DNA of 64,000 bases from Paratrimastix pyriformis (lineage: Eukaryota; Preaxostyla; Paratrimastigidae), in NCBI GenBank assembly GCA_027972325.1, contig JAPMOS010000022.1, positions 62,001 through 126,000 on the forward strand. Reading direction: 5' to 3'. The notes beneath the pieces were generated by a model that was not told the origin of the DNA, did not search any database, and worked only from the letters and a program-made list of their open reading frames with translations. Position numbers and translations under genes: made by a program. Position 1 is the stretch's first letter, and each line of letters begins with the position of its first letter. This document shows, piece after piece, positions 1 to 64,000 of the stretch.

Positions 1-3000
1 CAGGACCACCCGAAGAAGGCCAGAGGCATCAGGAGCGGGCGCACGTCTTCCACCAGAGCGGCGCTGTGCCGCATCAGCGAAGTCAGAAGCAGAGTAGCCG
101 CGCTAGTCGATGGCAAAGAGGTGGCACCGCGAACCAATAGCAAAGGCAGAACGCGGACCTCATGGTATCCAGATCAAATGTGAAAAAGCGCGCGGTGGCA
201 GGCTCGATCAGATCGCGGGCTACGACCCCACTCGGCAGTGTGGGGATCAGAACAGCGATCGCATCCGCAACGGCCGCGATGATTGGTCGGCTTGGATGAG
301 TCCCCAGGGGGAGCAGTGCCCGCAGCAAGCGGGGTGCCTGCACCTTGAAGGCGTCCGTTCTCCCAGAAAGCTCTACAGTCCACCGAGTGAGAGAAAAATA
401 AAGGTGAGAGACGAACCGGCCCAGCGATGCACCGTCCAGGCGCAGCGGCACCCATGATTGATCACCCAGCCCTTCCCGGCACCCGGTGGGCCGCCCTGCT
501 CGACCAGCCTGAAAACAGCCACCAGGAGTGTCCCCATCGCTTGGGAGGCAGCAAGGTCGCCGGCACTTTGAAGGGCTTGCAAACAGATATTCAGGCTGTC
601 CTCAGGACTCATGGTATTCGCGGCTCCTGGCGAATCCTCATTTGCGTGGGTCAGTTGCGAAAGGACCCGTTGGACAGCAGCCGATGCGCCCGGTGGGGCA
701 GTATTGCCCATGAGGGAATTCAAGAGGGACTGCACAGTTGCCTTGCCACCTGCTTCCTCCAATTCGGCCCGAGCATGGTCACGCGCCTCAATGCCAGTTA
801 GCAGTGCGCCGACAATTCGGACAGTGAGATGAGCCGGCCGCAATAACTCTGACCCAGCAAGGTTGAGGATCCGATTGAGAGCTGTGAGACTCCACTGCTG
901 GAGGTGCGCCGAGAGGCGGGGAGCAGCTGCTCCCATGACCGCCGAGAGACCTGACGGGAGGGACACCGGGGCGTCAAGGCCTGTCCGGGGCAGCCCTTGA
1001 AGTACCTCCTCGGCAAGGGCTCTGGTTTGCTCATTTTCCTGGGGTGACATGAGACCCTCAAACAAATGTTCAAGTGGCGTGGTCGTGTCGGGATCCTACA
1101 ATGTGTGTCAGAGGCACGCACATGTGATGGTGGGGAAGCAAACCTGGCAAAAATCGAAGATGGACAGGAGAACAGGGATGAAGACCTCCACCGCCTGCTG
1201 AGCCTCTGACCTGGTGACGGAAATTCCCACCTGTCTGGTCCCGAGGAGTTGGTCTGAGAGCGACTGGTGTCGGGTTGGGTCGCCAGCACCTAATCCCAGG
1301 GCAAAATCACCACCACGCCCTGGGCCGCCGGCTTGGGCCCGCTGGGCTGCTGCCCGAAGTTGCGCACCTTCATCGTGCTGGTGCCAGTCGACCAAAACGA
1401 ACATGGTCATACCCAACTGGTCGAGGAGCTGCCAACCAGCTTGGGCGAGTGATGGGTGTTGGAACGCCGATGGGGGAGGGTCCACGATCAGCAACAGAGC
1501 CTCGTGGAGGAGGCGAGAAAATGCGTGCTGACGGGTGAGCAGATCGATTGTTGAATTGGCCGTTGCTGGGATTGCCGCTCCCAGCGCGCCAGGCCCAGAG
1601 GCCGTCAGTCTCGCCAGCAGGTCGACCCCGCCGAGCAAGGCAGCCTGTGCAACTCGCCAGTTGGGATTGTGAGCGCTGGCTGCAAGTTCGCCAACGAGTC
1701 GATCGAAGTGTCGGGAGATGAGGCTGTTCGTGTTGGGCACAAGGATCCGCCAGAGCGCGTTCATCGAGTCACGAATCCGGTCATTGGGGTCGAACCGGAA
1801 TCGGTACAACTTGGGCAGAATGACTGCCTCCAATTGTTCTGGCGAACGTTCCGTCAGCTCGCGAAGAAGTCCCCGAGAATGATAGCGGGTCCCACGGGGT
1901 GACTCCCACATCGGTTGGGACTCGGTCATATCGAAGAAGCAGTACACCTGGATCAACAGAACATCGGGAGGACGATGAAGGCGACAAAATGAAATGGCGT
2001 CCAGACCATCGGGGGATAGCCAAGCTCCTGCGCCATCCCGGCCAGCTCTCGGTAGGTGATAATGCGTTGTGTGGGCGAATCGGGGGCGTTGCGAGAGTCT
2101 GCGGGACCTTGTTGAAGGCGGTTAACGTGCATCATCTCAGGGTCGGACATCAGCGCAGTCTTCTCGACGGAAATACGCTGAGGGTCAGTGAAAGCCTCGA
2201 TCACCAGGCGCACCAACAGCTTCCGATCTTCCTCAGTTGCAGCCCGGTAGACGGCACCCATCCCTTTGGCGCAGATTTCCTGGGACGAGAAAGGAATTGA
2301 GTGAGCCACGGCGTTCAAGCAGGAGCTTTTTCATCACCGATGTTGCCCCGGGGAAGAACGGAGAGACAAAAAGACCTGGACATACTCGTCGGCCATGCTG
2401 ATCAGTCCCAGAAAGACCTCTTGTACATCGGAAAGCCGTTCCCTCACCGCTGGGTGGCAGCCAGCATGGTGGATGATGCCCAGGAGCCAGACAACGCCAG
2501 ATCTCCGCTGCCCTCGTGAAGAGCGCTCACTAGTGCATTGCTGCAAAACAGCATGAAGAAGGGCCTTGGCGAAGCCGCGCATTTGGTGAACAGGGGGTCT
2601 GGAAGCAGCCGGAGAACCTGCGGCGACGGGGGCACGGAGGATCGCGTTGTCAGTGGCCCATTTTTCCGCGAATGTGACTTCTTGGGCATGAGAACGATCA
2701 GCCTGCGTGATGAGACGGTGAGCTCCGGTGATCCCGACTCGCAGCTCACAGACCGGATGGGCCATGTCGCGCAAAAGGGGAAGAAGCGGGTCGTGATCGG
2801 CGGCTTCTTGGAAGAGCATGTCCTGGGGCGACGGAAGGGTACAAAAGAGCCGAATGCCAGGACCAGCGACCGTCAGCATCTGGGCGAGTGTCTCTCCTGT
2901 ACCCAAAGAAAGTTGAGATGAAGGCAGAGGTGACGAAGGAGAAACGGACCGACAGCCAGCTGAATGAGGTCGTCTTTGACGGATTGACTCAAGTGGGTCG

Positions 3001-6000
3001 TGAGTGTAGCGAGAGCTTTGGCGCCCATCCAAGCGGTGGCCTCACCTCCGCACAGAGCTCCGACGACCTCAAGGGCTCCTTGGGCCACGGACAGGTCGGC
3101 GTGCTTGAGGAGTGGGGGCAACACGGTCGTGAACAAGGCTTCTTTGGACATTCCTTCGGATCCCGATTGAGAAATGGGCAATGGACCCAGGCCGGCCACG
3201 AGTGCCAACGAGCGACAGGCCCCAATGAGCAAGGTGGGATGTTGGCCCGAGACACTCAGAACGTCAAAGAGGCTCCCCAGGGCCTGCCTGAAGACAGGTT
3301 CTGGCAAGCAATGCGCACTTACGCCCTGAGCACAGAGCGCCCCCAGCGCGAGGATGCGCGATTGCAGCTGATCCACAGCTGAGATTTTCGGAGCGCTGGA
3401 CAAGAACGCCGACATCTCCCCAGCGAGCTGAAATGGCAAGTGGCATTCAAGGGGGACAAAAAAAGAAAGCCCGACAGACCCGGGTCAAGGTCTCGGAAGG
3501 ATTGGGAGTGCGGAGTGCGATGATACCGATGGCTTTTGATAGGGCCAATCGGGCGGGCTGGGGTGCAATCTTGGAGAAGAGAGCACCGCAAAGGGATTCA
3601 ACACTCGGCAAAGGAATTCCACTGGGAGGGAGATGGACGAGTATCTCGAGTAGAGCGAAAGCGCCTTCCATGACTCCGAAGTGAAGCGGGGCCATGTTTT
3701 CGCAGAGAGCGGCACGAGAGGCAGAATCGACACCTTGGAGTGGGTCCAGCGCGCGAGCAAGCAAGCCCAAATAGGCCCCAAGGGCAGCAGGGTCGGAAGC
3801 CAAACGGCCTGCCCGGGCAGCGTACTCCTCGGAGGAGCCCGTATGCAGGCAAACGCGAAGGAAGTGAACCAAAAACCCAAGGGCTTGACAAGGGATGGTG
3901 AGGGAAAAGGCACCGGGCAAAAGGTATTTGAGCGCCTCAGAAAAGTCGGGGCATGCCTCCAAGGTTGCGGGCGCCGCTGAAGCTGACGGGGATTCCGCGT
4001 CAGCTGGGTCCATGAAAAAGGGCACTCCGGGGGGATTCAGGCCCTTGCGAGCCTCATCTCGCACACTCTGGTCCGGATCGGCTGCTCCGATGATACACAC
4101 CAGGCGGGCTGTCAGGTCATGGAAGGGACGGGTTCGAAGAGCCCATGAAACAGCAGCGAAACGAGCTTGAGGGGTGGACCGAGGGTGCTGGAGAGCCTCG
4201 GCCATCAGCTGGCTGAGGCGATCTTCAATCTGTGGAGGGAGAGGAGGCGACACTGTATGAGCGAAGGCCCCGCTGAGCATCGAGAGAGCTTCCACCAAAG
4301 CCAGTCGGAAGGAAGCATCCTCCGATCGGAGAGCCTCCAGACAATGAGCGACCAAGGCCACCCCATTGGAGTTGCGTACGACCGCAGGCAGACGACGGGC
4401 CAACGAACCCAGGCACTGATAACCGAAATCTCGCATGGCCGAGTGATGGGGGGCAGTGCCGTGGATTCGCAAACGCTGCTCCAATTGCTGTTGGGCAGGA
4501 TTGCTCTTTTGTCCCTCAGTTTGTGCGGGTCGGTAAACTGAAGTAAGAGTCAAGGCCGTCACATAGAGAGCGGGTGCCATCGCGCGAAGGGAGTCCTCGG
4601 AAGCCTGCAGCAGGACCCATTGGGCGAAGCTCACCGCAGCAACTTGCAAGGAGGGCGTTGTCAAAGGAGGCCCGGAGTCGACTGGCTTGGGACTGTCAGC
4701 AGTGGTTTGTGGGGCAAGACCGAGGGCCTTCATGAACGATTCCGTCTTGGGTCCGGGTGCCACAGGTGGCTCGGGTAACGGAAGAGCAGGAGAAGGAGAA
4801 GGAGGCTGTTGTGGAGTCGCCTTCGGCAGAGGTGGGCCCAACAATGCGGTTCGGAGCAGTGTCACAGCCGCAGGGACCGTATTGGCAGCCCTGACCGATC
4901 GCGACAAGATTTTCATGACGGCCACCTGTGGAGCATCGTGGAAGTGATCGACGCGATTTTGACTGCACGGACCTGGATCGAAAAAGGGGCCCGTTTTTTG
5001 GAATCGGGACCGTCAACAATGGTGGCTGGACCGTCCGGACTGACGGGGCTCGCAGAGCCCAGAGCAAGACGATAGAGGGACGCGACCAGGTCGGGTGCCT
5101 CCAGATCGGCATTGGGGCGAACCTCCTTCAACAGAGTCTCACCCAAAGTCCGAACGGACGACTCGAAGGAGCAAGAGGCCGCCAAGGCGTGTTTGAGGAC
5201 CTGCACAAAGGTGATGACAGGAGGGGGAAATGTCGTCCAGACCAGGTTGGGGAATGGGCGAAAGAGTGTTGATCCCAAAAATTTGAGAACAAAAGTTTGA
5301 ATTGCGACCAAATCTGACGGGAGAGTGGACTGAGCCCCGCAAATACGCGTCCAAGAACGTCCACTGCGTGCGGCTGTTGAAAAAGAGGAGAAGCAGAGAC
5401 TCACTTGCAGACCTGACGCAGGGGGAATCCTTTTGGTCTGGTGGGTTGCACAAAAGGAGATCGAGCGAGAAATCCAACAAAGCAATGAGATTGGACGACA
5501 GGGTGAGCACCTGATCCTTCATCAGGGGATGGTCGAAAGTGTGACTCGTCTCACTCCGAGGCTGCTCTGTGAAAAAGTACGAGAACGCAGCCCGAGCCTC
5601 GGCAAAAGTCGATGGGATACTCAGCTGTGGAAGCGCTCGAACTGCCATCCGAAGGAGCGCGCCCTGTTGGAGATCTTGTGCGGCAGTTGTTCCGGTAGTG
5701 GGGCCGAGGGCCAGGACTACGAGGCGAAATAAGGCAGACTTCTCCAGTGGTGCGAGACGTGCGAATGCCATATCAGCAAAAATCATCGTCAGATTTTTCA
5801 CAACAAAGGAAGGAGAGGTGAGGAAAAGCTCGATCAAGGCCTGCGCAGGGAGGCGAATGTCTGCAGGCGGTATAATCGAAGAATGAGAATGTGAAATGCT
5901 GACCAGGATTTGGCCGGACACGCTTCGTGATGTGGCTGAGCAATTCTATCGCCCGGCTTCGAATATCTTGGTTGTCTGATCCAGCACAATTAAGGAGTGG

Positions 6001-6087
6001 GATCAAGTGAGCCTGGAGCACTACGTCAAGTCCACTGTCATCCGTATGAGCAACATCATTCAAGATTTTATCGAGAGTCGCATCCAT
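1..6087 (-). CDS. ECM29: ECM29, proteasome adaptor and scaffold protein (3' end outside window)
   Basis: HEAT-repeat scaffold that bridges the 20S core and 19S cap of the proteasome. The family signature is visible along the whole stretch: an N-terminal vR.raiELLsHitKRv segment (about 5910-5950), the LLDFSLDLLL segment near 5470, and LPKLYRFRFDPNDRIRDSM (about 1780-1840), which matches the diagnostic LvPRLYRYqFDPN motif of ECM29. A segment with MSPEDSLNICLQAL follows near 570-610. The last visible exon (1-102) ends in a match to the family's vLPLAFlG stretch, so roughly 500 C-terminal residues lie beyond the window. Introns placed by phase and homology: 103-158, 1096-1143, 1948-2006, 2280-2375, 2897-2949, 3428-3479, 4926-4972, 5861-5903. 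One near 5374-5404 (31 bp) is tentative, and one ending at 373 has an unresolved donor. Start chosen at the ATG at 6087; human ECM29 is somewhat longer at the N-terminus. The host proteasome subunit PSMA6 lies 7 kb away. Confidence 0.88.
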
Positions 6088-6599
6088 CTCGTCGCCTCGG
6101 TGGCGCGGAGAAAATGCGATCTTCCGGAAAATGCGATTATGGAAGCGGGTCTATCGACTATGTCATAGCGGTTTTTCGCCCATTTCTTTTTTTGAGTGGT
6201 ATGGATCTGCCCATTCCGCTGCCGAACACAGACGTGATCAACGAAAATATTGAAGCTCGTTTAAAGCCCATTCGAAGGTTCGCCAACCTTCTTCTGGCTG
6301 TTCCCTGTTTGCATTTCCCACAGTTGGGAGGCCCACTTGCTCGACTACGCCAGTCCCAAACAAGGGGCGATTCCTTCCAGAATACGAACCGTGGGGAAAA
6401 AGAAGAAGGGGTCCCATCTTCCGCCCCGTCTGTCATGTTATTGTTGATGTTTCTCGGCCTCACGCAGTTCTTCAGTCTCGTCCGTCTTGGCCGATGGCGT
6501 TAAGGTCTTTCATCCTCTCTCCGCGCACTTCTCAATCCTTCCTCCAAGTCCCAGCCAGCTCATCACAGCCACCGCTCTCGCCCGCTGCACAACCTTGTG
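6088..6599. other. Intergenic region between divergent ECM29 and the Pro-rich gene
   Basis: About 510 bp of lower GC than the flanking Pro-rich gene. It holds a short tandem duplication (GAAAATGCGAT twice, at about 6111-6145) close to the ECM29 start, and one open frame at 6200-6503 (+) encoding about 100 residues beginning MDLPIPLPNTDVINENIEA. That frame has no recognisable family and no supporting splice or homology signal, so I do not call it a gene. A pyrimidine-rich stretch ending in CAG at about 6545-6554 could be the acceptor of a 5' intron of the Pro-rich gene, whose open frame extends upstream of its first ATG. Confidence 0.4.
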
Positions 6600-12500: not shown

Positions 12501-13329
12501 GGCGGCCCCCTCGCCCCTCGCCCCCATGCCGCCGTCCCCGCGGCTGGTCACGGCCTCGCCCCGCCGGGTGCGGCCCCACTCGGCCCCGCGCACCCTGCCC
12601 ACGCCCGCCCCATCGACCCCCTGCGCCAGCCCAACCATCCCGCCGGCCCTCCTCGGGGCCCGGTCGCCCCGCTGTTTCAGTCCCCCCACGGCCGCCACGG
12701 CAGCGGTCCCTCGGCTGGCCGCCACCCACCTGCCTCAGATCACCATCCCCCCCGGTGCCGAGTACTTCTCCTTCGCCGGGCCGCGCATCCTCGCCCCCAC
12801 GGCCGCCGCCCCCTCGGCAGTCGAGCCGCCCTCCCCCCGGCCCTGGATGCCATACAGCCCTGGCAGACCCTCGCCCGCCCTCCCGACACTCCCACCCGCC
12901 GCGCCCGCCCTCCTCCCCCTCGCCGCCGCCCACGGTGGTGGTGGGGGAGGGCCGCTACCGCCGGCGGGGAAACACCAGCCCACCCCGCCATGCACCCCGC
13001 CGCCTGCCGGCCCACGGCCATCGCCTCGCAGGACGGCGCACAGCCTGGGTCCCGGGGCTGGGGCGGGCCCTTTGGTGGCAGCGGAGTGCCTGGGAATCGC
13101 CCTGCCCCCGGAGGCGCCGCCTCCCCGCCTGACCCCCGGCAGGGTCCTGCTCCCGCACTCCATGAGGCCCCATCTGCCGACAGGGTTACCACCACCCGCT
13201 TTCAACGACCCCACCGGCACCCCGCCACCCCCACCACGTCGGCCGGTTGGCGAGCCAGAAGTCATTACGAGTGGACAGATGGCTGTTCGGCGGACACCTC
13301 AACCACTTCCATCGCCTCGTCGAAGCTGA
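6600..13329 (+). CDS. Very large Pro/Ala/Ser-rich low-complexity protein with a coiled coil
   Basis: Not recognised. About 6.7 kb of almost uninterrupted coding potential gives a protein near 2,200 residues. First ATG at 6600 (MGLPTASPAPS), possibly preceded by another exon; stop TGA at 13327. Composition is Pro and Ala, with Ser-rich blocks (about 7280-7430), a polyhistidine tract followed by Arg (about 7182-7210), a second His/Ser/Arg block (about 9580-9700), and a Glu/Asp patch with SEGDDEG (about 9920-9960). Two segments look folded: RAHFAHRHLRVLNRSAMQLE and what follows (about 10435-10560), and a helical Gln/Leu-rich coiled coil LDRTTLRAQLDELRAMQQRH onward (about 11509-11680). The reading frame changes near 9560-9600 (C-rich) and between 10590 and 11450 (a run of 18 G at 10971). 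These may be small introns or homopolymer errors. The composition resembles transcriptional co-regulators, but no domain proves that. Confidence 0.6.
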
Positions 13330-13455
13330 GTATCAAATTCAATACTTTTTGTGACCCAATATCTCCTCACCTCTCCCGGCTTCTGAACCGGCTCGTGTTT
13401 TTTGCGCTGACGAGCACAGTCGACAAGACCTCTTGCCTTTTTTTCTGAACACAAG

Positions 13456-14658
13456 ATGGCCGGACGCTCGGGCTATGACAGGTACATCGCAATCTTTTCT
13501 CCAGAGGGTAAACTCTTCCAAATTGGTTTGTTATATTTGTGGAACGACCCGAGCAAATTCCTCCGTAGAATATGCTTGCAAAGCCATTCGCACCGAAGCT
13601 GTGACTGCAGTTGCCGTGCGGGGGCGTGATTGTGTTGTGATCGCTTGCGAAAAGAAGGTTCCAGTCTGTTTCTCCATCCATCCCCCTTCGGCAATCTTAT
13701 CATTCTCTATTTTTATGAACGCTCGGCGACTGCCTGGATTTAGGACAAGCTGATCGATCCTGATACTGTGAAACATGTTTACAGAGTCACCGAACACATC
13801 GGCGGCCTTTTTGTGGGCATTCAAGGTCTGCTGACCATCCACTCTGACCTTGCCAACAGGTTCCAAACATCACTCGTTCATCGTGTTCTTTAGCTGATGC
13901 CCGGCAACTTCTTCACCGTGTTCGGATCATGGCGGCCAATTTCAAGCTTGAGCACGGCATCGAGATCCCTTGCGACTATCTCGCAAAGATGGTTGCGGAT
14001 GATTTCCAGTTTTTCACACAACACGCATATTCTCGTCCTCTTGGAGTTTGTCTGTTGTTCTTTGAACGGCCGGCAAGACCCACCACAATTCGTCTTCTCC
14101 AGCCCTGATGCTCTTCTCCATTGATGAGGAGTTCGGCCCTCAACTTTTCAAGATGGATCCCTCTGGCTTCTTTGCCGGCTACAAGGTCGGCTTTCTTTTT
14201 GCCTTCCTCCCAAAGCCTGACTGCCGGTTCCACCCAGGCCGCCGCCACCGGTCAGAAGGAGGTGGAGTGCACCAACCAGCTGGAGAAGAAGCTCCGTCCC
14301 AACCCGGCTCAACCCGAACTTCACTATGGTGAGTGTCTCAAGGTCTGCCCTCGGTGATTCAGATCTGGTATCGAAGTTTCATCCCCCCTCCCTCCCCCCC
14401 CCCCCCCCCCCCCCCCCCAGATTGCCCTGACGACCCTGCAGGGTGTCGTGAACCGCGAGTTCCAAGCTGCCGAGCTTGAGGTGGTCGCCGTTCGCGCTGC
14501 TGGCCCTGGTGTTCCCCCCTGAGGCTGTTCGGGCCATCGCTCCCCTCGCCGACCGCGAGGTCGATGCCGCCTTGACGGAGATCGTCGAGGGCGGCGGCTT
14601 TGAGGACTACATGAGGCAGCTGGCCGAGCGCGGCGAAGAGGAACCCGCCGACCGGTGA
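13456..14658 (+). CDS. PSMA6: Proteasome subunit alpha type-6 (20S core alpha1)
   Basis: Alpha-ring subunit of the 20S proteasome. It starts MAGRSGYDRYIAIFSPEGKL, the proteasome alpha N-terminal signature (FSPEGRLyQvEYA), continued after the first intron as IEYACKAIR. Next come TAVAVRGRDCVVIACEKKVP, ADARQLLHRVR with EHGIEIPCDYLAKMVAD, and SRPLGV then FSIDEEFGPQLF, all matching PSMA6 in order. Introns: 13526-13568, 13664-13743, 13826-13893, 14050-14102, one after the codons for FFAGYK (about 14178-14237), and one of about 85 bp from 14334 that contains a poly-C run directly before its CAG acceptor. Two small frame problems remain. The phase does not close cleanly across the last intron. A run of six C at 14513-14518 puts the final 45 codons (ending GEEEPADR) one base out of frame. 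One C fewer would restore the family-like C-terminus, so an assembly error is likely. Confidence 0.9.
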
Positions 14659-17406: not shown

Positions 17407-19793
17407 ATGGAAGCAGGAGCAGCCGCAGAAGAGAAAAAGGCCGTCGAGCCGGTCGCCCCCCAGAACGCCGATGAGGAAGCGGAAGGCGTTTCTGCGGCGG
17501 AGAAAAAGCGTTTGAAGAAACTTCGTCAAAAGCAAAAGAAAGAATCTGAGGCGCCTGCCCAATCGGAGGCTCTTCCCACCGATGGAGCTGCTTCGGCAGC
17601 TGTCCCAGTCACAGCGGCAGCTGCGGCGCCATCTCTAACCCCCAAAACCGAGGCTGATGAAGATCAAGGTTCGTATTGACCCCCATCGAAAACGTTCACT
17701 TCGGCTGATAGAGGAAGCTGGCGACGATGCTCATGCTGGTGAGGCGAAAAAGAAGAAGAAGAACAAGAAGAAGAAGACCGCTCCCCTTCCCTCAGTACCT
17801 CTCTCGAAGCAGTTCCCGACGCTTCAATTCCCCATGGGACGGATCGAGGAATACTCTGGGTCTGGGTCTCTCTCCTGTTCGATGTGTTGGATTTCTGTGG
17901 TATATATCCCAGCGATGCGCGTCGGCCGATCACCGAGGAGGCCCGGGAGCGGGACCGGCTCAACGAGGGCATGCTGAACGATCTTCGCAAGGCCGCCGAG
18001 GCGCACCGCCAGGTTGGTCGTCGCCCTCGTCTCCTCGAACTCCCTTCACACGTTACCCTCGACCAGGTGCGGCGCTGGGCTCGAGCCACCTGCCGGCCGG
18101 GTGTGAAGCTGTTCGAATTTGTGGAAACCCTCGAGAACTCCATCCGGACCATCATCGAATCGGTCGGCCGGCACCCGCCCAGGCCCCTCATGCTCCGCCA
18201 CGATCGCGTCTCTCCTGCCGACCACCGGTTCTCAATTTCTTCGTTTGGGGGTTTGTGGGGCACAGCAAGGGCTGAGCCACATCGAGGCGGGCATCGCCTT
18301 CCCGACGGGTGTCTCCCTGAACCACGTTGCGGCGCACTTCACCCCCAACCCGGGCGACGAGAACGTCACCGTCGGCGAGGGCGATGTCATCAAGATTGAT
18401 ATCGGGACCCACGTCCACGGTCCGCCGTCCCTCCTGGCGAGCCCCCTCCCTCCTTGGCGTGTGCCGATTCCTTCCCCACGGCTGCCGCCGCTCATCCACC
18501 AGGGCGCATCGTCGACTCGGCCTTCTCGATGTCATTCAACCCCGAGCTGGACCCGCTCGTCGAGGCGTCCCGGGAGGCCACCAACACCGGTGTTCGGGTC
18601 TGCACATCCCGCCATCATCGGCCCTCGCCGTACCTCTGTTCCCCATGTCTCCCTCTCCCCCTCTTCTTCTGCTTCTTCTTCGGCATTTGGCATATTCATT
18701 CCTGCGCTTCTTCTCTTGGCGTCTTGGTGGGACGAACTTGGTCCGTCGTGTGCCAGCTGGCTGGCCCTGACGCCCTGCTGCGGGACATCGGCGCCGAGAT
18801 CGAGGAGGTCATCAAGTCCTACGAGGTCACCGTCGGCGGCAAGACCTTCCAATGTCCGTCACCACCACCATCACCCGCCCTTGGGCGCCGCCAGTGTCTC
18901 TTCACCTCTTCATCTTTCCCTCCCGTCCATAGGCAAACCCATCAGAAACCTCAACGGCCACCTGTTGGGCCCATACACCATCCACGCCGGTCTGTCACGG
19001 CGGCCCTGTCCTTTCTTTCCCTTCCCCGAGCTGCTCTAACTTGTCATCTCCATCCCACCCTCGCGCATGGCCCGCAGGCAAGAGCGTCCCCATTGCCGCC
19101 GAGTCGGGGGACACCACCACCCGCATGGAGGAGGGCGAGCTCTACGCCATCGAGACCTTCGCCAGCACGGGCCGCGGTCTGGTGGTCGACGACGGCGAGT
19201 GCTCCCACTACATGATGGCCCCCAACCCCTCACTGGCCAACATCCGGTCTGCCCGCCCCACCCACCGCAACACCGCTGATCGGACCCCGCCTTTGTAGCA
19301 ACCCCAAGGCCCGCCACCTGCTGGCCCACATCCAGCAGAACTACGAGACCCTGGCCTTCTGCAACCGGTCTGTGGTCGTGACTGGGGCTTGTTTGGCAGA
19401 GTGGTGGCGAACAACACCACGAAACACTGCACTGCACTTTCCATCACACTGGCCCCACCGCACCTGTTCCATCGGTATACATCAGACCACCATCCCTCTT
19501 GCTTTTGTCGAAGCGTTAGTGGTATAGTGGCAGCATTTTGCCCTTCCAAGGCAAAGATCCGGGTTCAATTCCCGGCTAACGCATAACATTTTCCTTTTTT
19601 CCATCCCTCCAGTTGGCTCGACACCGCTGGTGAGACGCGCCACCAACTTCAGCTGCGGGCCTTGATCGAAGCCAGGGCCGTGAACCCCTACCCGCCCCTG
19701 GTCGATACCCGGGGCAGCTATGTCTCCCAGCATGAGCAGACCTTCCTGCTGCGGCCGACATGCAAGGAGATCATCAGCGCAGGTGACGACTAG
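17407..19793 (+). CDS. METAP2: Methionine aminopeptidase 2
   Basis: Cytosolic dinuclear metallopeptidase that removes the initiator methionine. Eleven exons: 17407-17668, 17712-17859, 17913-18012, 18067-18207, 18266-18419, 18503-18597, 18757-18853, 18933-18989, 19078-19246, 19299-19367, 19613-19793. The type 2 hallmarks are present. An N-terminal extension has a poly-lysine block ([10 protein letters not shown]) as in eukaryotic MetAP2. Then come [29 protein letters not shown], the metal ligand region IKIDIGTHV and [30 protein letters not shown], the [17 protein letters not shown] segment and the C-terminal [15 protein letters not shown], which ends like the human protein (GDDY). All exon phases close. 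The last intron (19368-19612, 245 bp) is longer than the others and contains a complete tRNA-Gly gene on the same strand. Confidence 0.95.
19513..19583 (+). tRNA. tRNA-Gly (anticodon TCC), inside the last intron of MetAP2
   Basis: A 71-nt cloverleaf: acceptor stem GCGTTAG/CTAACGC, A-box-like TGGTATAGTGG, anticodon stem TTGCC/GGCAA with loop CTTCCAA (anticodon TCC), and T stem CCGGG/CCCGG with loop TTCAATT, followed by discriminator A. It closely resembles the animal tRNA-Gly(TCC) sequence as remembered. T runs at 19588-19601 could serve as the Pol III terminator and also fall in the polypyrimidine tract of the host intron. Confidence 0.96.
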
Positions 19794-30428: not shown

Positions 30429-31329
30429 ATGGAAGGGACTTCTCCAGATGTCTCCTCGCCAGAGCTTCAAAAACTTGCTCAAGCCCTTCGATCCATCCCC
30501 GAAGGCCCAGAGCCACTCTATTGCTTGCTTTTGACGGGTTCGCTCAACCCAGTCCACCGGATGCATGTGTCTATTTTTGGTTTGATTGCCTTTTGTGATT
30601 TTTTTTTTTTTGACCGATTCCCAAAAGATCTCGCGAAACGGCATTTGGAATCAACGTTCCCCGGTATGATGGTGGTAGCTGGTTGGATTTCTCCGAGCCA
30701 CGATCAATATGTCTCTCACAAGCTCGGGCACGATTTTATTCCGGGGTCTGCGAGATTGACGATGTGCCGTCTTGCAGTGGCCCAGCATCCCTGGGTCAGC
30801 GCATCTGCTTGGGAGACGGAACAATCCGGCTTTGTCGACTTCCCCGAGTGTACCGAAAGGATGCAGCAATGGTTGAAATTGCAGTTCCCTCGGCGAAACC
30901 TGAAGGTGAGTTCCTCGCCTCTTCTCCTGTCGCTTCTACCCTTCGGCATAGGTCCTGTTCATTTGCGGCGCGGACCATGCCGTCAGGTGTCATATTGTCC
31001 CGCCACACCACCGCAGGTTTGGTGTGGTGTGTCTCACCCGCGACGGGAAGGAAGATGAAATCAAGGTCCGGAACGAGGCGTTGTCCGACATCAACGTTCT
31101 TTAGAGGCAAATGGGCCGTTTCGGCGTGACTGAGGGCACCGGGCCCGCCCCTTTTTTCCTTGTTCCCGGGGAACCAGCCGCAGTGAGTTCAACCGAGGTT
31201 CGCTGCAGGCTACTGCGCGGAGAACCAATGGGTGATCTTCTCCATCCCGATGTCGAGCAATGGCTTCGGCGCTTTTGGGACGAGACACACCCGAAGCTTC
31301 CCGAAGTTCCGACTGAAATTCCCAAGTGA
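30429..31329 (+). CDS. NMNAT: Nicotinamide/nicotinate mononucleotide adenylyltransferase
   Basis: Joins NMN or NaMN to ATP to make NAD or its acid precursor, the common last or next-to-last step of NAD synthesis. Four exons: 30429-30579, 30628-30905, 30952-31065, 31105-31329, with all phases closing. Motifs in order: LTGSLNPVHRMHVSIFDLAK (the GSFNP..nMHL nucleotidyltransferase signature, containing the H-x-x-H-type element), VVAGWISPSHDQYVSHKLG, GSARLTMCRLAV (human R..M..lA), WVSASAWETEQ (human WVeVDtWE), VLFICGADHAV (human LLCGADLLeSF), RFGVVCLTRDG, then FFLVPGEPAAVSSTEVRCRL, which is the ISSTKIR motif. Length about 256 residues is slightly short of animal NMNAT3/1. The first exon adds an N-terminal stretch MEGTSPDVSSPELQKLA. 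Confidence 0.92.
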
Positions 31330-37268: not shown

Positions 37269-39235
37269 ATGGCGAGCGCATCCCCAGTGTCTCATTTGAT
37301 CCCGTACTTGGACAAACACTTGACGCTGTCCTATGTTGAGTTCCTCTTGAGCAAGGAGGTATGAATATTCATTTCCCACTCATTGAACACAAACTCCCTT
37401 TTCCGCTCATCCACAGATCTTCCCACGGGAGCAGCTCCTCACTGCGAAGTTCGACATTCTGAAAACCACTCACATGGTTGACGCTGCTATTGACACATTC
37501 AAACTTCTGCATCCCACGGATGCCATTCCTGAAGGTCATTCCGTTACCTTCCGTTCCTCGCTCACTGTCATGTGCGGGGGAAACTGGATATAGACCTGAC
37601 TTCCAAGAAGGCCGATATCCAACAAAAAACAGCCCAGTTTGACGAAGACATTCGAGAATTCAAAGATCTTCTGTCCCAGGATTCCCTGAAGGAGGATGGG
37701 ACTCTTGATGCGAAGATTTCCGAGGCATTTGCTCGGAGGGTCCGCGAAATTCTTTCACCGCTCGCAAACAGTCCACCTCCACAACCACGATATCTTCTTC
37801 GCCCCCACAGGATCCTGCCCGCACCTTCGACCTCATTTATTCCTATGCCCGGTTCCAGTACGAGTCAGGCAACTACAAGCTCGCCGCTGATTTCCTGGCG
37901 CTCTTCCTCTCTCAGTACTCCCTTCTGCTGGGCGCCGACAAGGCAGCCACCTCCATTCCCCTGGACGACCCCTCGGCCAAGGAAAAGCGCCTTGCGGCCG
38001 CTCTTCAGGCCGCCCAGGCGCTGGTCAGTGAGGAGAAGCGCGGCCAGGTGCTGTGGGGCAAGCTCGCCGCCGACATTATGCAGAAGAACTGGGACTCGGC
38101 TCTGCAGTGCGTGACCGCCCTGAAGGAGTTCATCGACATGCAGAAGGGCGTCTCCACCCAACTGCAGCTCCTCCAGCGTACTTGGTTGGTCCACTGGTCC
38201 CTCTTTGTCTTCTTCAACCACCCGAACGGCCTCAACCTCCTCCTCGACCTCTTCTTCAACGAGCGGAACGAAAGGTCAGTCAAGGAGGAGGAGGAGGAGG
38301 AGGAGGAGGAGGAGGAGGAGGAGGAGGAGGAGGAGGAGGAGGAGGAGGAGGAGGAGGAGGAGGAGGAGGAGGAGGAGGAGGAGGAGAGGAGGGAGGGGGG
38401 GAGGGGGGGCACGATCGCAGCAGCCTACTCACTTCCCTCTCGCTCTACCTCTCCACCATCCCGTCGCTCGCCTGACAGCAAGTACCTCAGCACCATCCAG
38501 ACTACCGCCCCGCATCTGGTGCGCTACCTTGTTGCCGCCCTGGTGTGCAACAAGCGGAGGCGCTCGATGCTGCTGAAGGACACAGTGCGGCTTCTCCAGC
38601 AGGAGCACTACCACTACGGGGACTCCCTGACGGCCTTCGTGCTCTCGCTCTTCTCCGAGTTCAACTTCGACGCTGCCCAGTCCCGGCTGGCCCAGTGCCA
38701 GGAGGTCGGCCCGCTTCCCCCTGCCTCCTCTCCCTCACCCCTTTCTTGGTCCCGCCAGGTTCTGGTGAACGACTATTTCTTGGCTCCCCTCAAGGACGAG
38801 TTCCTTGAGAACGGCCGCCAGTACATCTTCGAGATCTCCTGCAAGACCCACGAGCGCATCGACATCGCGTCTGTTGGCAGCCTTTGTTCGGCACCTGACC
38901 TTTGATTCACATTTTTTTTTGTAGCACAATCGCCCAGCAGCTTCACATGCCCCCCGAGCAAGCCGAGCAGTGGCTTGTAAACCTGATCCGCAACGCCCGT
39001 CTCGATGCCAAGATCAACTCCCCCTCTAGCATCAGCATGACCATCCACACCCCCACAATGTCTGTCGCCTCTCTGTTGCCGGCGTTCCTCACTCCTTCCG
39101 CGCAGTTTCCGGCAAGTGAAGGACAAGACTCGCGGTCTCACCTACCGCAGTAATGCTCTCCTCGCCAACGTGGAGAAGCGGCTGAGCGAGCGCGCTGCTG
39201 CCGCCGCTGCTGCCGCCGAGGCCCCCAAGTCTTGA
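37269..39235 (+). CDS. EIF3E: Translation initiation factor eIF3 subunit e (INT6)
   Basis: PCI-domain subunit of eIF3, which brings the 43S complex to mRNA. Exons: 37269-37358, 37417-37534, 37594-37739, 37811-38274, 38479-38704, 38759-38868, 38925-39059, 39106-39235. Phases close throughout. Matches to human INT6 in order: [117 protein letters not shown], and the PCI core [21 protein letters not shown] final [20 protein letters not shown] is followed by an Ala-rich tail ending APKS. The fourth intron (38275-38478) contains a GAG/GGA trinucleotide tract of about 100 bp, so the poly-Glu reading through it is not part of the protein. Confidence 0.95.
38285..38391 (+). repeat. (GAG)n microsatellite in an eIF3e intron
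   Basis: About 35 uninterrupted GAG/GGA units inside intron 38275-38478. It is purine-rich on the sense strand, the reverse of most intronic tracts in this window. Confidence 0.9.
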
Positions 39236-39549: not shown

Positions 39550-41543
39550 ATGTCGAAGGGCTTGTTTGTCATTAAGCCGTACAAAGCTGCCCAGGCCCCC
39601 GAAAAAGATTATGAAAAGAAGATCTGGGCCATCCTGGAACGTGCCGTCAACCAGATTTACGATAAGAATAGCTCCGAACTGAGCTACGAAGAATTGTACA
39701 GGTTTGCCCTGTTCTGCACGAGTTTCTGACGCACCCCTCCCAGACATGAATACAATCTTGTCCTTCAGAAACACGGCATGTTCCTCTATCGGGAGCTTCA
39801 GAATTGCATCACATCCCATCTGGCTGCAGTTGCCGAAAAGGTGTTTGCCTCTCGAGATAGCCTGCTGATGACATTGAATGGGCAGTGGGTCGAACACCAG
39901 ACCAATATGCGGATGATTCGCGATATTTTCTTGTACATGGTTCGTTTGTCATCTCGGGTTCCGTCTCTCACCACATCATGCGTTCGGTAGGACCGGACCT
40001 TTGTTGGGCAACACCACTTGCCATCTGTGTATAACATGGGCATGATCGCCTTCCGCGACGCGGTCATCCATCAAGCCAAGGTCAAGGAGCGGCTTGTCGC
40101 GATGGTGCTCGACGAGATCGACCTGGAACGAAGAGGCGAAGGTCCGGCAGCCACCCAGCGGCGGTCCATCACCTCACCTGTTTCGCCAGTGATCGAACGG
40201 AGCGTCCTGAGGAACATCACGAAGATGTGGGTCGACCTGGGCATTGACGGGAAGGGCGTCTACGAGGCCACCTTCGAGGAGCCCTTCCTGGCCAAGAGCA
40301 CCGAGTTCTACCAGCGCGAGAGCCAGCAGTACATCGGCCAGTGTTCGTGCCCGGAGTACCTCCGGCGGGCCGAGAGCCGTCTGACGGAGGAGCTGGCCCG
40401 GGTGGACCACTACCTGGACTACATCACCACCAACAAGATCCGCAAGGTGGTCGAGACGGCCATGCTCGAGACCCATCTCAAGCTCCTCATTGAGGTCAGA
40501 CCCCCCCCCCCCCGCCCCCACCACCACCACCAGCCCCACCAGCCACCACCAGCCACCACCAGCCACCACCAGCCACCACCAGCCACCACCAGCCACCACC
40601 AGCCACCACCAGCCACCACCAGCCACCACCAGCCACCACCAGCCACCACCAACCACCACCACCAACCACCACCACCACCAACCACCACCAACCACCACCA
40701 GCCGCCACAAACCACCACAAACCACCACCTCCTTCGGATGTGCCGACGTGCGCATGAAGACTGACGGTCCTCCTCCTCCTCCCCCTCCTCCCCCCTCCTC
40801 CCCCCCCCCCCCCCCCCCCCACACACACACACAGATGGATACGGGCCTCGTCGCCATGCTGCGCGACGAGAAACTGGAAGGTCTGCGAGGCATCTGCCAT
40901 CCCCGGCCCATTCCAATATGCTTCCCTCTGGCAGACTTGGCGCGGATGTACCGGCTGCTGGGGCCCATCCCCGGGGGCCTGGCCCTGGTGAAGCAGGTCC
41001 TGTGCGAGTACATTTTCCAGACGGGCACCGACCTTGTGGTCAAGGACGAGGAGAAATCCAAGCAGTCCGGCCCGTTTGTCGAGGCCCTGCTCGAGTTCAA
41101 GGTTCGGCTCCTTCGCCTCCATTTGTGCTTCTCGGTGATCGGTGACACCGTGTGCACCCCCGCCCATTTTTGCCTTCCACTTCCTGGCTGCTCATTCTCT
41201 TACCCCTTCCTCGCTCGGCCCCCCAGGCGAAGGCCGACCGGCTCCTGGAGGGCGGCTTCTCCAAGGCCGGAAAAGCCGACCACGAGTTCGTGACGGCCGT
41301 CAACGAGACCTTCACCCGGTTCATCAACCAGAACGCCAAGGCCCCCGAGTTCGTGGCCTCGTACCTGGACGAGAAGCTGAAGACGGGCACCAAGGGCATC
41401 ACCGAGCTCGAGATGGAGGCCCTCTTCGATCACGTCCTCGTCCTCTTCCGCTTCCTGAACGACAAGGTCCGGCAGCCCTTCCTGGACGGTGAGCGGGCGG
41501 GTCGATGAGATGAGTGAGCTGGTCGCCCTCCTCACTGCTGGTA

Positions 41544-41575
<32 letters not shown>

Positions 41576-43570
41576 TGACCTGGCCTGGCCTGGCCTGGCC
41601 TGGCCTGACCTGACCTGACCTGACCTGACCTGACCTGACCTGACCTGACCTGACCTGACCTGACCTGACCTGACCTGACCTGACCTCAGGACATTTTCGA
41701 GAACTTCTACAAGCAGCAGCTCGCCAAGCGGCTCCTCCTGAAGCGCACCAGCAGCGACGAGCTGGAGCGCATCATGATCGGCAAGCTCAAGGTCCCCCTG
41801 GCGCACTCTTGGCCTCCGTGTTTGCTCATGCCGCGTTTTCCCCCTCGGTGGCGCCGGGTCCTCGGGCACGTCCAGCAAGAGTGCGGGTACAGCTTCACGA
41901 GCAAGCTGGACGGGATGTTCACCGACATGAAGGTGTCCGACGACCAGATGGACGAGTTCAAGCAGTACCTCGAGGGCGCCGAGACCCCCGTCCGGGTCGA
42001 CCTGCACGTCTCCATCCTGACCCAGGGCTACTGGCCCAACCAGGTCCGCCCTCGCGCCCCATCCTCCGCACGTTGCGGGAAGCCACGAAGGAAGTCAGCG
42101 GCACACTCACCGCGCCATCCCCCACCGACCGGCCGATTTCCCTGCAGATCATGGCCAAGTGCAACATGCCTCCCGAGATCGATACGGCCATCCAGACCTT
42201 CCAGTCCTGGTACCTGGGCAAGCACAGCGGGCGGCGGCTCACCTGGCAGCCCAACCTGGTCCGTCCGAGGCGATGGCGACTCCGCTGCTCCGTCCCTTGA
42301 CCTCGTGCCTCTCACAAACCCCGCGTCGCCCCCGCCCCGCTCGATGTTGCTCTACCCCAGGGCACGGCCGACTTGAAGGCCCGCTTCCGGGGCAAGCTGT
42401 ACGAACTCAACGTGAGCACTTACCAGATGGTCATCCTGATGCTCTTCAACGACCGGGACACGCTCACCTTCCGCGAGGTCCCACCCGCCGTACCCCCACC
42501 CCCCACCCCATCGCTGAGCTCCCACCCAGGGCAGTGCCGTCACGTTTACTTCTCCTGCCGCCCTGTCCCGTCGCGTGCAGATTCTCCAAATGACGGACAT
42601 GCCCGACAAGGATCTCCGCCGCGGCCTGGGCTCTCTGGCCCTCCAGAAGGTCAAGGTACTCCTGAAGGAACCCGACAACAAGGAGATTGGCGACGTCTGC
42701 TTCCCTCCTCCTCCTCCCTCCCTCCCTCCCTCCCTCCCTCCCTCCCTCCCTCCCTCCCTCCTCCTCCTCCTCCCCTCCCCCCCCCCCCCCCCTCCTCCTC
42801 CTCCTCCTCCTCCTCCTCCTCCTCCTCCTCCTCCTCCTCCTCCTCCTCCTCCTCCTCCTCCTCCTCCTCCTCCTCCTCCTCCTCCTCCTCCTCCTCCTCC
42901 TCCTCCTCCTCCTCTCTTCCTCTTTCTCGCCCCCTCGGCCGGATCCATTCTCGTCCGCGCCGTGCCCTGACCGGGGTTGTCCCCCAACGCGCAGGCGGAT
43001 GTTTTCCGGTTCAACGCCGAGTTCAGCAACCCCCACCGGCGGGTCAAGATCAGTACCTTCATCACCCACAAGGACAAGGTCGATCCGGTCGAGACCCGCA
43101 CCAAGGTCGACGAGGACCGCAAGCACCTCATCGAGGCCACCGTGGTGCGCATCATGAAGGCCCGCCAGCACATGGACCACCAGAACCTCGTCTCGGAGGT
43201 CATCAAGAGCCTCTACTCCAGGTCCGCACCTTCTCCGCCTCCGCCTCCGCCTCTCTCACTCCTTCCTTCCATCCTTCCCTCCCTCCTTCCCTCCCTCCTT
43301 CCCTCCCTCCTTCCCTCCCTCCTTCCCTCCCTCCTTCCCTCCCCGCGTGGTGCCGGACTGTGCCCTCATGGTGGTCGTCTTGATAACCGGGTGGGATGCA
43401 GATTCCAGCCGGCACCCAAGGCCATCATGCAACGGATTGAGAGTCTCATCGAGCGCGACTACCTGGAGCGCGACAAGACGGACCGGTCTGCTGCTCCGGT
43501 CGGGTTGGGCCGTCTCTCATCGCGCCATCTCCCCGCGTTCCTTAGGCGGCTCTTCCACTACTTGGCCTGA
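39550..43570 (+). CDS. CUL3: Cullin-3, scaffold of CRL3 ubiquitin ligases
   Basis: Scaffold that binds BTB-domain adaptors at its N-terminus and RBX1 at its C-terminus. Fifteen exons: 39550-39701, 39744-39939, 39991-40141, 40190-40494, 40835-40880, 40935-41101, 41227-41466, 41690-41791, 41876-42043, 42148-42258, 42361-42477, 42581-42694, 42995-43221, 43402-43485, 43546-43570. All phases close. Landmarks: ELSYEELYR joined to HEYNLVLQKHG (CUL3 LSFEELYRNAYTMVLHKHG), IRDIFLYMDRTFV, GVYEATFEEPFL, DIFENFYKQQLAKRLLLKRT, ECGYSFTSKLDGMFTDMKVS, GYWPNQ, and the C-terminal neddylation winged helix TKVDEDRKHLIEATVVRIMK. That helix includes the VRIMK motif whose lysine accepts NEDD8. The tail IESLIERDYLERD is followed by FHYLA (human YTYVA). 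The overall match favours CUL3 over other cullins. Confidence 0.93.
40500..40834 (+). repeat. CCACCA-type and TCC-type simple repeats plus poly-C in a cullin-3 intron
   Basis: Intron 40495-40834 is almost wholly simple sequence. It begins with a C run and continues with about 200 bp of (CCACCA) units with AGCCACCACC subrepeats. Next come (TCC)n and a run of about 20 C, ending in ACACAC before the AG acceptor. Confidence 0.85.
41545..41689 (+). repeat. Poly-C (31) plus TGACC/TGGCC minisatellite in a cullin-3 intron
   Basis: In intron 41467-41689, a run of 31 C (41545-41575) is followed by about 22 tandem 5-mers, first TGGCC and then TGACC, up to the CTCAG acceptor. The unit resembles a branch-point sequence (TGAC), so many candidate branch points are stacked just upstream of the acceptor. 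Confidence 0.9.
42717..42912 (+). repeat. (CTCC)n and (CTC)n tracts in a cullin-3 intron
   Basis: Intron 42695-42994 carries tandem CTCC units (about 42717-42765), a C run, and about 40 CTC/TCC units to 42912. A similar CTCC tract fills 43262-43340 in the next intron. All are pyrimidine-rich on the sense strand. Confidence 0.9.
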
Positions 43571-51647: not shown

Positions 51648-51807
51648 CTGCGGCTTTATGAAAGTTTGATGAGACTTGTGCTAATGAAATATCCGTGACA
51701 AACCATGCCCTGTCCCTGTGGGGGGGGATTCAGCATCTGCTTTCAGTGATCTTTATTACCCGGGGATCGCAGGCTAGTGCAAACGTTGTTCTGTGCCGGC
51801 CCCTCTG
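51648..51807. promoter_or_regulatory. Divergent promoter region PRP40 / CHD1
   Basis: 160 bp between the start codons of PRP40 (-) and CHD1 (+), AT-richer than both genes, with an 8-9 base G run near 51720. It probably holds both core promoters; no TATA box is obvious. Confidence 0.5.
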
Positions 51808-62562
<10,755 letters not shown>

Positions 62563-62765
62563 GTCCCGCCTGCAAGAGGGCAGCCCCACCGCCGGCACCA
62601 CCGGCAGCCTCCACCCGCCTGCAGCTTGGGCTGCTGCCCCTTGCCCCACCGGGGCCCCCACCGGGGCCTAGCGGGAGGCCATCCTCCTCGCCCTCGCGCC
62701 TCTTCCCATCACCCTCCCCACCCACCGCCGCCCTGCCCCTGCCCGCCGCTGACCCTGCCCCACGC

Positions 62766-62813
<48 letters not shown>

Positions 62814-62816
62814 GGC
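62563..62816 (+). other. Gap between CHD1 and the next Pro-rich reading frame
   Basis: About 250 bp, GC-rich, without a clear signal. The CHD1 stop TAA overlaps a good GTAAGT donor, so the possibility that this is an intron and the downstream frame belongs to the same transcript cannot be excluded. A CAG/AGC trinucleotide run (about 62769-62811) lies at its end. Confidence 0.35.
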
Positions 62817-64000
62817 ATGGGCGACCCATCCGCTCCGCCCCTCACGGCCTCGGCCACTGTCGCGCTCGCGCCCGCGCCACCCACCGCCACCACCCCACCT
62901 GCCGCCCCCGGCCCGCCCCCGGCCGCCATCATGCACAGCGAGTCGCCAGGCCCGGAGGCGTTCTGGGTGAGCGGCACCTCGCCCGTCCCGCTGCCCTCGC
63001 CCGCATCGCCCGCGGCCTTCCTGGGGGCCCCCGCCAGCACCCCGCTGCCCTTCGGGTTCCTCTTCGACCCGCTCGACCCGCGCCCGCTGGCGAGCCTCCT
63101 GGGGGCCAGCCCGCCCCCGGCCCCCTTGGCCCCGCCCCTGACGCCCCCCGGCGGGCCGGCCGATGAGGGCACCCCCCCATGGCCCCTGCTGCTTGCCGAG
63201 CCGCTGGCTGAGCTGGACGGCCTCGGCCCGGGTGCCGGCCTGGGCGAACTGGGCCTGCTCTCCCCCCACGGGGCCATGTCCCTGTCCTCGGGGGGCCTCC
63301 TCTCGCCGCGCCCGTCCCCCTCCCCGGCCAGCCTGGCCCTCGGGGTGGCGCCGTCCATCATCCCGTCCCCGGCCGTCCCCGGCCCGGCCACCGGCACCCC
63401 CCCGCTCCCTGACGTCGCGACCGCAGCAGCGGGGACACCGGCATCGGCGCCGCCACCTGTGGCCGAGACGGCGCCCCGGGCACCCGAGCATCCGCATCCC
63501 CCGCTCGTCCCTGCTCCCGCCCCGCCGCAGGCGGCCAGCAGCGGGGCGGCTTTCACCGCACAGGAGCCGGCGACCGCCCCCTCGGTCGGCGGGCCGGCAT
63601 CCTCCGCCGCCCCCTCCGCGCCTCCGCTCGGCTGCGCCCTGCGTCTCACCTCACCCCCGACGCGCCCCCGCCGCCCCCGCAGCGCCTCCCGACCCCCGCC
63701 ATTACGTCTCCATCGCCCACCCTGCCTCCACCCTCCTGCCCGGCCCTGGCCGGCGGCGAGAACCCGCCTCCGCCCCTCGCCGCCCCCGCCCCGGTCATGG
63801 CCCCGCCCCCTCCGGTGGCCCCGCGCGCCCACCTGGCCCACGTGCGCCTCCCCAACGGGCTGTGCTCCTGCGGCCGCTTCCACCGGGATGCCCTCGGCCA
63901 CCGGGCCGCGCCCCCGCCCCGCCGCGCAAGCACCGCCGCCGCCACCTCGGGGGCCCAACCGCACCACCACACCCACAGCCACCGCAGCCACCGCAGCCCT
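62817..64000 (+). CDS. Pro/Ala-rich protein, 5' part only
   Basis: Not recognised. A frame starting at the ATG at 62817 (MGDPSAPPLTASATVALAPA), preceded in frame by an alanine run encoded by GCA repeats, stays open to the window end. Early parts have some non-random hydrophobic content, such as PEAFWVSGTSPVPLPSP, FLFDPLDPRPLASLLGA and LLAEPLAELDGLGPG. After about 63645 a different frame looks more protein-like, with RAHLAHVRLPNGLCSCGRFH (about 63826-63885) and a His-rich end. A frame slip in a C run or a short intron is therefore likely. Whether this is a separate gene or a 3' exon of CHD1 is open. It resembles the 6600-13329 protein only in composition. Confidence 0.4.
   Translation, partial: MGDPSAPPLTASATVALAPAPPTATTPPAAPGPPPAAIMHSESPGPEAFWVSGTSPVPLPSPASPAAFLGAPASTPLPFGFLFDPLDPRPLASLLGASPPPAPLAPPLTPPGGPADEGTPPWPLLLAEPLAELDGLGPGAGLGELGLLSPHGAMSLSSGGLLSPRPSPSPASLALGVAPSIIPSPAVPGPATGTPPLPDVATAAAGTPASAPPPVAETAPRAPEHPHPPLVPAPAPPQAASSGAAFTAQEPATAPSVGGPASSAAPSAPPLGCALRLTSPPTRPRRPRSASRPPPLRLHRPPCLHPPARPWPAARTRLRPSPPPPRSWPRPLRWPRAPTWPTCASPTGCAPAAASTGMPSATGPRPRPAAQAPPPPPRGPNRTTTPTATAATAA

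Follow-up and report, generated by a model that had tools for sequence, protein, structure and literature searches.

An apparently rewritten U1 snRNA 5' end matches unusual GTYYG splice donors in Paratrimastix pyriformis

The 5' end of the U1 small nuclear RNA (snRNA) is among the most constant RNA stretches of eukaryotes. Here we describe an apparent departure from it, together with unusual splice donors, in the free-living flagellate Paratrimastix pyriformis (Preaxostyla), taking as our window a stretch of 64,000 nucleotides (bases 62001-126000 of contig C135, in an assembly of 56.06 Mb and 495 contigs). Nucleotides 5 and 6 of U1 are pseudouridines in human and yeast. Nucleotides 1-10 are called invariant from yeast to human in a U1 snRNP structure paper (PMC4383343), and a survey of 230 yeasts and 10 outgroups found ACUUACC invariant in all U1 recovered (236 species), sought compensatory U1 or U6 changes across its 240 species and found none (PMC10581693). 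The same survey ties switches between A and U at donor position +4 to METTL16 and SNRNP27K, and names replacement of pseudouridine-5 by A as a possible compensation. Giardia U1 has ACUUAC alongside GUAUGU-type donors (PMC3510501), and in 21 introns of the oxymonad Streblomastix, a relative of P. pyriformis, positions +3 to +5 are A, U and G (PMC1501061). The published P. pyriformis genome (56.63 Mb, 633 scaffolds) was annotated using intron hints from RNA-seq, and the text searched in that paper does not discuss splice signals (PMC10703272); nor did searches of an open-access library bring up any Preaxostyla U1 previously described as altered.

To characterise the donors, we placed introns by homology with a spliced aligner in which the protein match alone was scored, GT..AG was required and letters +3 to +8 were ignored, and found that +3 was C in 38 and T in 6 of 44 GT introns from seven genes, with no A and no G. 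Position +5 was G in 42 of the 44, as in major-spliceosome GU-AG introns, and +4 was C in 21, T in 17, G in 4 and A in 2. When a GTATGA donor at 37359 in eIF3e is added, +3 is a pyrimidine in 44 of 45 introns (38 C, 6 T, 1 A), of which the window alone holds 36 (31 C, 4 T, 1 A). These counts bear out in substance an earlier note on this DNA, made from the letters alone, which had read a pyrimidine at +3 in about 59 of 63 introns and C in about 49, with the G at +5 kept.

An ab initio gene finder, with only GT and AG fixed and training on 264 kb, gave the same picture in a sample made up of the window, parts of two further contigs and the sequence flanking 19 snRNA genes. In its first pass, before any donor information, the fractions of C at +3 and G at +5 were 0.69 and 0.63; at convergence (540 introns) +3 was C in 0.91, +4 C in 0.58 and T in 0.26, +5 G in 0.79, and +6 C in 0.60 and T in 0.26, and over 634 introns the trained finder placed C at +3 in 0.90. 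A flat run, in which the trained exon and intron models were kept and the donor and acceptor were flat apart from GT and AG, returned 515 C, 44 T, 63 G and 7 A at +3 in all sampled sequence (n=629), and 102 C, 8 T, 13 G and 2 A in the window (n=125). A GT inside an intron body is followed by C in 0.38 (37.9%), G in 0.38, T in 0.20 and A in 0.04, and against this background 515 of 629 is a strong excess (binomial p ~2e-113); since intronic GT has G after it as often as C, donors have gained C at the cost of G no less than of A. The unusual donor pattern, GTYYG and mostly GTCYG, is thereby confirmed in the sampled sequence; a genome-wide C at +3 would, as the earlier note had said, depart from usual U1 pairing.

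A search of the 56-Mb assembly with the Rfam covariance model for U1 (RF00003) recovered eight genes (E 2e-10 to 4e-13) and listed no further U1-like match up to E 10 among the best 41 of 992 first-look candidates, and a DNA search recovers the same eight, 96-100% identical. All eight start with AUACAGACCUUG, where the Rfam consensus has AUACUUACCUG, and their first 57 nucleotides (nt), starting ATACAGACCTTG / ATACAGACCTTGC, are identical. The base facing +3, which the earlier note had singled out for checking, is indeed altered: nucleotide 6 is G and not U, and nucleotide 5, facing +4, is A and not U, so that the usual diagnostic letters ACUUACC are missing from the 5' end and ACAGACC stands instead in every U1 gene found. 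The covariance match spans model positions 1-166, the whole RNA including the cloverleaf helices, with CAUAAUGUUUGG and GAUCACACAGG at the model positions of the Sm site and the U1-70K loop, near the consensus but not equal to it. The word CCCATAA lies 59-60 nt upstream of all eight U1 genes, 52-54 nt upstream of all seven U5 genes and 66-67 nt upstream of all four U6 genes, and these class-specific distances support the U1 loci as genes as well as the position of their 5' end. This word, often GTCCCATAA after a T run, resembles a common snRNA promoter element (loci L001-L012 and L033-L039). By structure and likely role the RNA would be called U1, with an altered recognition sequence, and its 5' end appears to have changed from AUACUUACC to AUACAGACC.

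The remaining parts of a major (U2-type) spliceosome are present, with 10 U2 matches (9 above cut-off), two U4, seven U5 and four U6 copies. Loop 1 of U5 is the canonical GCCUUUUAC in 7/7 copies, and U6, which the earlier note had also marked for inspection along with LUC7, has the canonical GAUACAGAGAAG with ACAGAGA unchanged in 4/4. LUC7 homologues (two loci), a SNRNP27K gene, a METTL16-type domain gene and a match to the U1-C zinc finger are likewise present. Matching changes in U1 and donors, with U6 and U5 loop 1 canonical, thus look like compensatory rewriting. Loss of METTL16 as a cause of the +4 pyrimidine is unsupported, as the domain is present and carries the letters NPPF, which we take to be its catalytic motif.

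To compare the pairing of these donors with the P. pyriformis U1 end and with the canonical end, we predicted duplex energies with ViennaRNA. The organism's own end paired better in 43 of the 44 homology-placed donors (mean -8.05 versus -3.89 kcal/mol, a gap of 4.2) and in 560 of the 629 flat ab initio donors (equal in 7, worse in 62). For the consensus CAGGTCTGTAT the predicted energy was -14.3 kcal/mol with the P. pyriformis end against -8.8 with the canonical end, and CAGGTAAGTAT gave a near mirror image (-6.7 and -14.0, respectively). Among the 16 choices of U1 nucleotides 5-6, AG ranked second in both donor sets and the canonical UU 15th or last.

We are thus confident that the major-spliceosome donor of P. 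pyriformis moved from GURAG/GUAUG to GUYYG, mostly GUCYG, with the 5' end of U1 changing along. G6 of U1 would pair with C at +3 or wobble with U, A5 would face the pyrimidine at +4, and C4, A7, C8 and C9 would pair as elsewhere with G+5, U+2, G+1 and G-1. At the level of gene sequence, the cause that the earlier note had proposed to look for was found, and the major spliceosome of P. pyriformis would combine a rewritten U1 with donors that match it. The RNA made would carry the changed 5' end and pair with the donors in vivo, the rest of the genome would follow the sampled part, and the changes in U1 and in the donors would have compensated each other in evolution.

Several points weigh against this interpretation. 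The U1 genes score 50.8-60.2 bits, 9-19 under the Rfam gathering cut-off of 69.5, and the covariance search scored the best 41 of 992 first-look candidates; the assembly itself is a draft and falls slightly short of the published size. In an unconstrained minimum-energy fold, U1 nucleotides 4-8 pair with GUUUG at the presumed Sm site (e.g. L001:1501-1656), a pairing that Sm proteins would presumably prevent. Random intronic GT sites also lean by composition to the own U1 end, which pairs better at 373 of 483 (the canonical end at 101; -3.68 versus -1.93 kcal/mol, a gap of 1.75), so that the count of preferences alone is weak and the weight is carried by the size of the energy difference and by the G at +5. 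Nor is AG the best partner for these donors: as 21 of 44 carry C at +4, opposite A5, a U1 with GG at nucleotides 5-6 would bind them more strongly, and U1 therefore leaves the +4 C unexplained by Watson-Crick pairing; A5 may face a pyrimidine that GC pressure moves from U to C. Finally, the GTATGA donor at 37359, already noticed as such in the earlier note, is a true exception with A at +3: it is read directly from the DNA, and the match to an eIF3e chain of the Protein Data Bank (PDB) is ungapped across the junction.

After U1, the donor would pass to U6, whose ACAGA would meet the same letters through A41-Y+6, C42-G+5, A43-Y+4, G44-C+3 and A45-U+2 (human numbering); the contacts of A41, C42 and A45 are presumably those of other spliceosomes. 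U6 A43 is described as facing +4 (PMC11732430, PMC10581693), and that a U6 G faces +3 is inferred from yeast G50 (PMC11331412). AUACAGA is common to the U1 5' end (AUACAGA-CC) and U6 (AUACAGA-GA), the two altered U1 letters being the sole differences between canonical U1 AUACUUA and U6 AUACAGA, and UCUGU at +2 to +6 is the exact Watson-Crick complement of both. While the identity of these stretches is a fact, its origin by selection for a common donor is an inference, and we suggest only tentatively, as somewhat less than an even bet, that U1 converged on U6 and that the donor is handed over between near-equal partners at these positions. In the usual system, +4 A is strongly paired with U1 and weakly with U6 (PMC11732430). 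The donor of other eukaryotes strikes a compromise, with good pairing to U1 but poor pairing to U6 at +3/+4.

The same relation supports the strongest rival, that U6 sets the donor: donors would have been fitted to an unchanged ACAGA, and U1 would have followed or would matter little. This is compatible with a rewritten U1, differing in what came first, and it draws on the exact complementarity of UCUGU to an ACAGA unchanged in all four U6 copies as well as on Entamoeba, which is said to be without U1 snRNA (PMC13292270) and has GUUUGUU donors, high complementarity to U6 having been suggested to activate the Entamoeba donor (PMC6085484). On the other hand, U1 occurs in eight near-identical copies with promoter-like elements and a match to the donors, and seems to be under selection, and the homology-placed donors match UCUGU at a mean of 3.57 of 5 positions rather than at all five. 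As U1 and U6 demand the same letters, these data cannot separate the two, and we regard precedence of U6 as unlikely but worth keeping in view.

The eIF3e exception raises another scenario, in which the changed U1 serves most introns and a canonical U1, missed in the draft assembly, serves a minority such as GTATGA. Single off-consensus introns, however, occur across many species, and the eight copies found by two search methods are all changed. Although two types of U1 are described in the diplonemid S. specki (PMC12621601), we consider two U1 populations improbable in P. pyriformis.

Base-composition drift, by which +3 and +4 would have moved to C in a GC-rich genome without involvement of U1, in the manner of weakly paired positions, could appeal to a GC content of 66-70% in three samples, to intron bodies that are 45% C, and to C and T being about equally enriched over the intron background at +4. 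(The same equality is seen at +6; these two positions face A5 and A3 of U1, and as U is the only partner of A, it might reflect a modified adenosine or tolerated A-C contacts.) Yet G, as common as C after intronic GT, is rare at +3 of donors (0/44 by homology, 0.04 trained, 0.10 flat), T is used there besides C, and in all eight U1 genes the nucleotides that have changed are precisely the two opposite these positions, so we reject drift alone as very improbable.

The homology placements covered six introns of tryptophanase (against the protein in the NCBI database), 14 of CUL3 (against a profile built from as many as 70 homologues), eight of MetAP2, three of Rpt3, four of eIF3e and two of PSMA6 (each gene aligned to part of a single PDB chain), and seven of 12 placed in CHD1, aligned in the same way. 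The other five CHD1 introns, all with C or T at +3, were dropped where placement was unclear or a second alignment mode, in which GT and AG were rewarded but not compulsory, turned them into GC-AG introns. Left out of this re-placement were the introns that the earlier note had read in ECM29, CDC123, the transporter, NMNAT, SAR1, PRP40 and the small genes, and its donor at 30906. The tryptophanase junctions come from a protein of the genome annotated with RNA-seq hints and may thus have such support; the other placements were made without RNA-seq. The introns placed in the window, with the five donor letters and the mode of placement, are:

14186..14237, + strand: PSMA6 intron, GTCGG..CAG; homology
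14343..14420, + strand: PSMA6 intron, GTCTG..CAG, in place of the GTGAGT of the earlier note; homology, second mode disagrees
18013..18066, + strand: MetAP2 intron, GTTGG; homology
18163..18265, + strand: MetAP2 intron, GTCGG; GT-AG mode, second mode differs
18420..18502, + strand: MetAP2 intron, GTCCG; homology
18598..18756, + strand: MetAP2 intron, GTCTG; homology
18854..18932, + strand: MetAP2 intron, GTCCG; homology
18990..19077, + strand: MetAP2 intron, GTCTG; homology
19247..19298, + strand: MetAP2 intron, GTCTG; homology
19368..19612, + strand: MetAP2 intron, GTCTG; homology
37359..37416, + strand: eIF3e intron, GTATGA, sole placed exception with a purine at +3; DNA and PDB eIF3e match, end counted by hand
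38275..38478, + strand: eIF3e intron, GTCAG; GT-AG mode, second mode differs
38705..38758, + strand: eIF3e intron, GTCGG; homology
38869..38924, + strand: eIF3e intron, GTCTG; homology
39060..39105, + strand: eIF3e intron, GTCTG; GT-AG mode, second mode differs
39702..39743, + strand: CUL3 intron, GTTTG; GT-AG mode, second mode differs
39940..39990, + strand: CUL3 intron, GTTCG; homology
40142..40189, + strand: CUL3 intron, GTCCG; homology
40495..40834, + strand: CUL3 intron, GTCAG; homology
40881..40934, + strand: CUL3 intron, GTCTG; homology
41102..41226, + strand: CUL3 intron, GTTCG; homology
41467..41689, + strand: CUL3 intron, GTCCG; homology
41792..41875, + strand: CUL3 intron, GTCCC; homology
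42044..42147, + strand: CUL3 intron, GTCCG; GT-AG mode, second mode differs
42259..42360, + strand: CUL3 intron, GTCCG; homology
42478..42580, + strand: CUL3 intron, GTCCC; homology
42695..42994, + strand: CUL3 intron, GTCTG; homology
43222..43401, + strand: CUL3 intron, GTCCG; GT-AG mode, second mode differs
43486..43545, + strand: CUL3 intron, GTCTG; homology
54795..54930, + strand: CHD1 intron, GTCCG; homology
55132..55273, + strand: CHD1 intron, GTCCG; homology
55906..56002, + strand: CHD1 GC-AG intron, GCCCG; second mode only
56260..56388, + strand: CHD1 GC-AG intron, GCCCG; second mode only
56551..56678, + strand: CHD1 intron, GTCCG; homology
56807..56966, + strand: CHD1 intron, GTCCG; homology
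57106..57338, + strand: CHD1 intron, GTCCG; homology
57559..57653, + strand: CHD1 intron, GTCCG; homology
57809..57971, + strand: CHD1 intron, GTCCG; homology

The second mode gave the same result as the GT..AG mode for 37 of the 44 introns (32 C and 5 T at +3), breaking the other seven elsewhere. Fully free placement outscores GT..AG placement in CUL3, MetAP2, eIF3e, PSMA6 and CHD1 and ties with it in tryptophanase and Rpt3, and many of the free breaks in CUL3 lie a few bases away from the GT..AG breaks. In PSMA6, the GTGAGT that the earlier note had taken for a donor at 14334 (bases 14329-14334) is probably misplaced, as it lies 14 bases before the GTCTG at 14343 and would break the frame with the same acceptor; the PSMA6 alignment is ungapped through the GTCTG junction, although the second mode chose a non-GT break at 14335, which speaks against this placement. 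That the whole pattern might be a gene-finding artefact, with introns so placed that codon-derived GTCYG resembles a donor, is the least probable alternative and is rejected: ab initio training can reinforce itself and free placement does break many junctions differently (the second mode at 7 of 44), but flat donors yield the same pattern, homology placement is blind to +3, the tryptophanase protein gives a pyrimidine in 6/6 introns with no loss of score against free placement, and the U1 sequence is independent evidence.

Both GC-AG introns in CHD1 (55906 and 56260, donor GCCCG) have C at +3. When GC was permitted in ab initio learning, 72 GC donors were found among 646 introns; such donors may be common in P. 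pyriformis, but given its GC-rich genome we trust only the two placed by homology. Two introns contain transfer RNA genes on the strand of the host gene, tRNA-Gly (19513-19583) in the MetAP2 intron 19368-19612 and tRNA-Met (59601-59672) in a predicted CHD1 intron, 59537-59721. No clear branch-point motif emerged from the ab initio introns (YTRAY lies within the last 45 nt of 55 of 475), and G-rich words are enriched near their 3' ends. The U12-type donor RUAUCCUU occurs in none of the 44 tabulated donors, nor is the eIF3e GTATGA one (AT-AC introns were not looked for), and U12-type introns are rejected as an explanation of the donor pattern. A U12-like match (C432:103343-103517, minus strand, 44.9 bits, below the cut-off of 53) and a U6atac match (C445:22122-22254, plus strand, 46.6 bits, above the cut-off of 33) point to the presence of a minor spliceosome. 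The tryptophanase gene (C441, ~153.9-156.1 kb) is 99% identical to the NCBI P. pyriformis protein; of the 120 relatives listed for it, most of those with a name are archaea and bacteria, the named eukaryotes including Monocercomonoides, Blattamonas, Pelomyxa and Mastigamoeba.

A joint move of U1 and nearly all sampled donors would show that the splice code can be rewritten, as an evolutionary counterpart of the classic suppressor experiments. It would also provide a natural setting in which to study how a single splice site is shared by U1 and U6, as both want the same letters. If U1 has indeed converged on U6, the P. pyriformis spliceosome would read few foreign introns well, and vice versa. 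The case also serves as a warning that gene finders and U1 searches tuned to GTRAG and ACUUACC may fail in such lineages.

Compared with known systems, the P. pyriformis RNA resembles canonical U1 (RF00003) in its full-length model match, its multiple copies and a 5' end complementary to its own donors, and differs in having A and G, not U and U, at nucleotides 5 and 6. As the 21 Streblomastix introns keep A, U and G at +3 to +5, the split from the oxymonads probably preceded the change in P. pyriformis. The donors share pyrimidines at +3 and +4, G at +5 and complementarity to U6 with the GUUUGUU of Entamoeba histolytica. Entamoeba is not closely related to P. pyriformis. Its U1 snRNA is reported absent (PMC13292270, PMC6085484), whereas that of P. 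pyriformis is present and altered. The yeast +4 switches are likewise genome-wide changes of a donor letter facing U1, but in P. pyriformis U1 has changed and the METTL16-type and SNRNP27K genes appear to be present. In Cyanidioschyzon merolae, too, an snRNA letter facing the donor has changed (as described in PMC10581693 and PMC11732430, which cite it); that letter is the middle A of the ACAGA box of U6, in an organism lacking U1, while in P. pyriformis U1 is changed and U6 is not. S. specki and larvaceans, the latter with non-GT introns, have also drawn attention to U1 through unusual donors, yet in S. specki the U1 with a run of C coexists with a canonical U1 (PMC12621601), and Fritillaria has two U1 versions with identical 5' ends, the changes proposed there concerning snRNA methylation and U2AF. 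In yeast, finally, C at +3 (A3C) pairs with U6 G50 so stably that the transition to the second step is hindered (PMC11331412); in the P. pyriformis donors this letter is the usual one and, if U1 has converged on U6, would be normal despite its stalling effect in yeast once the first step is done.

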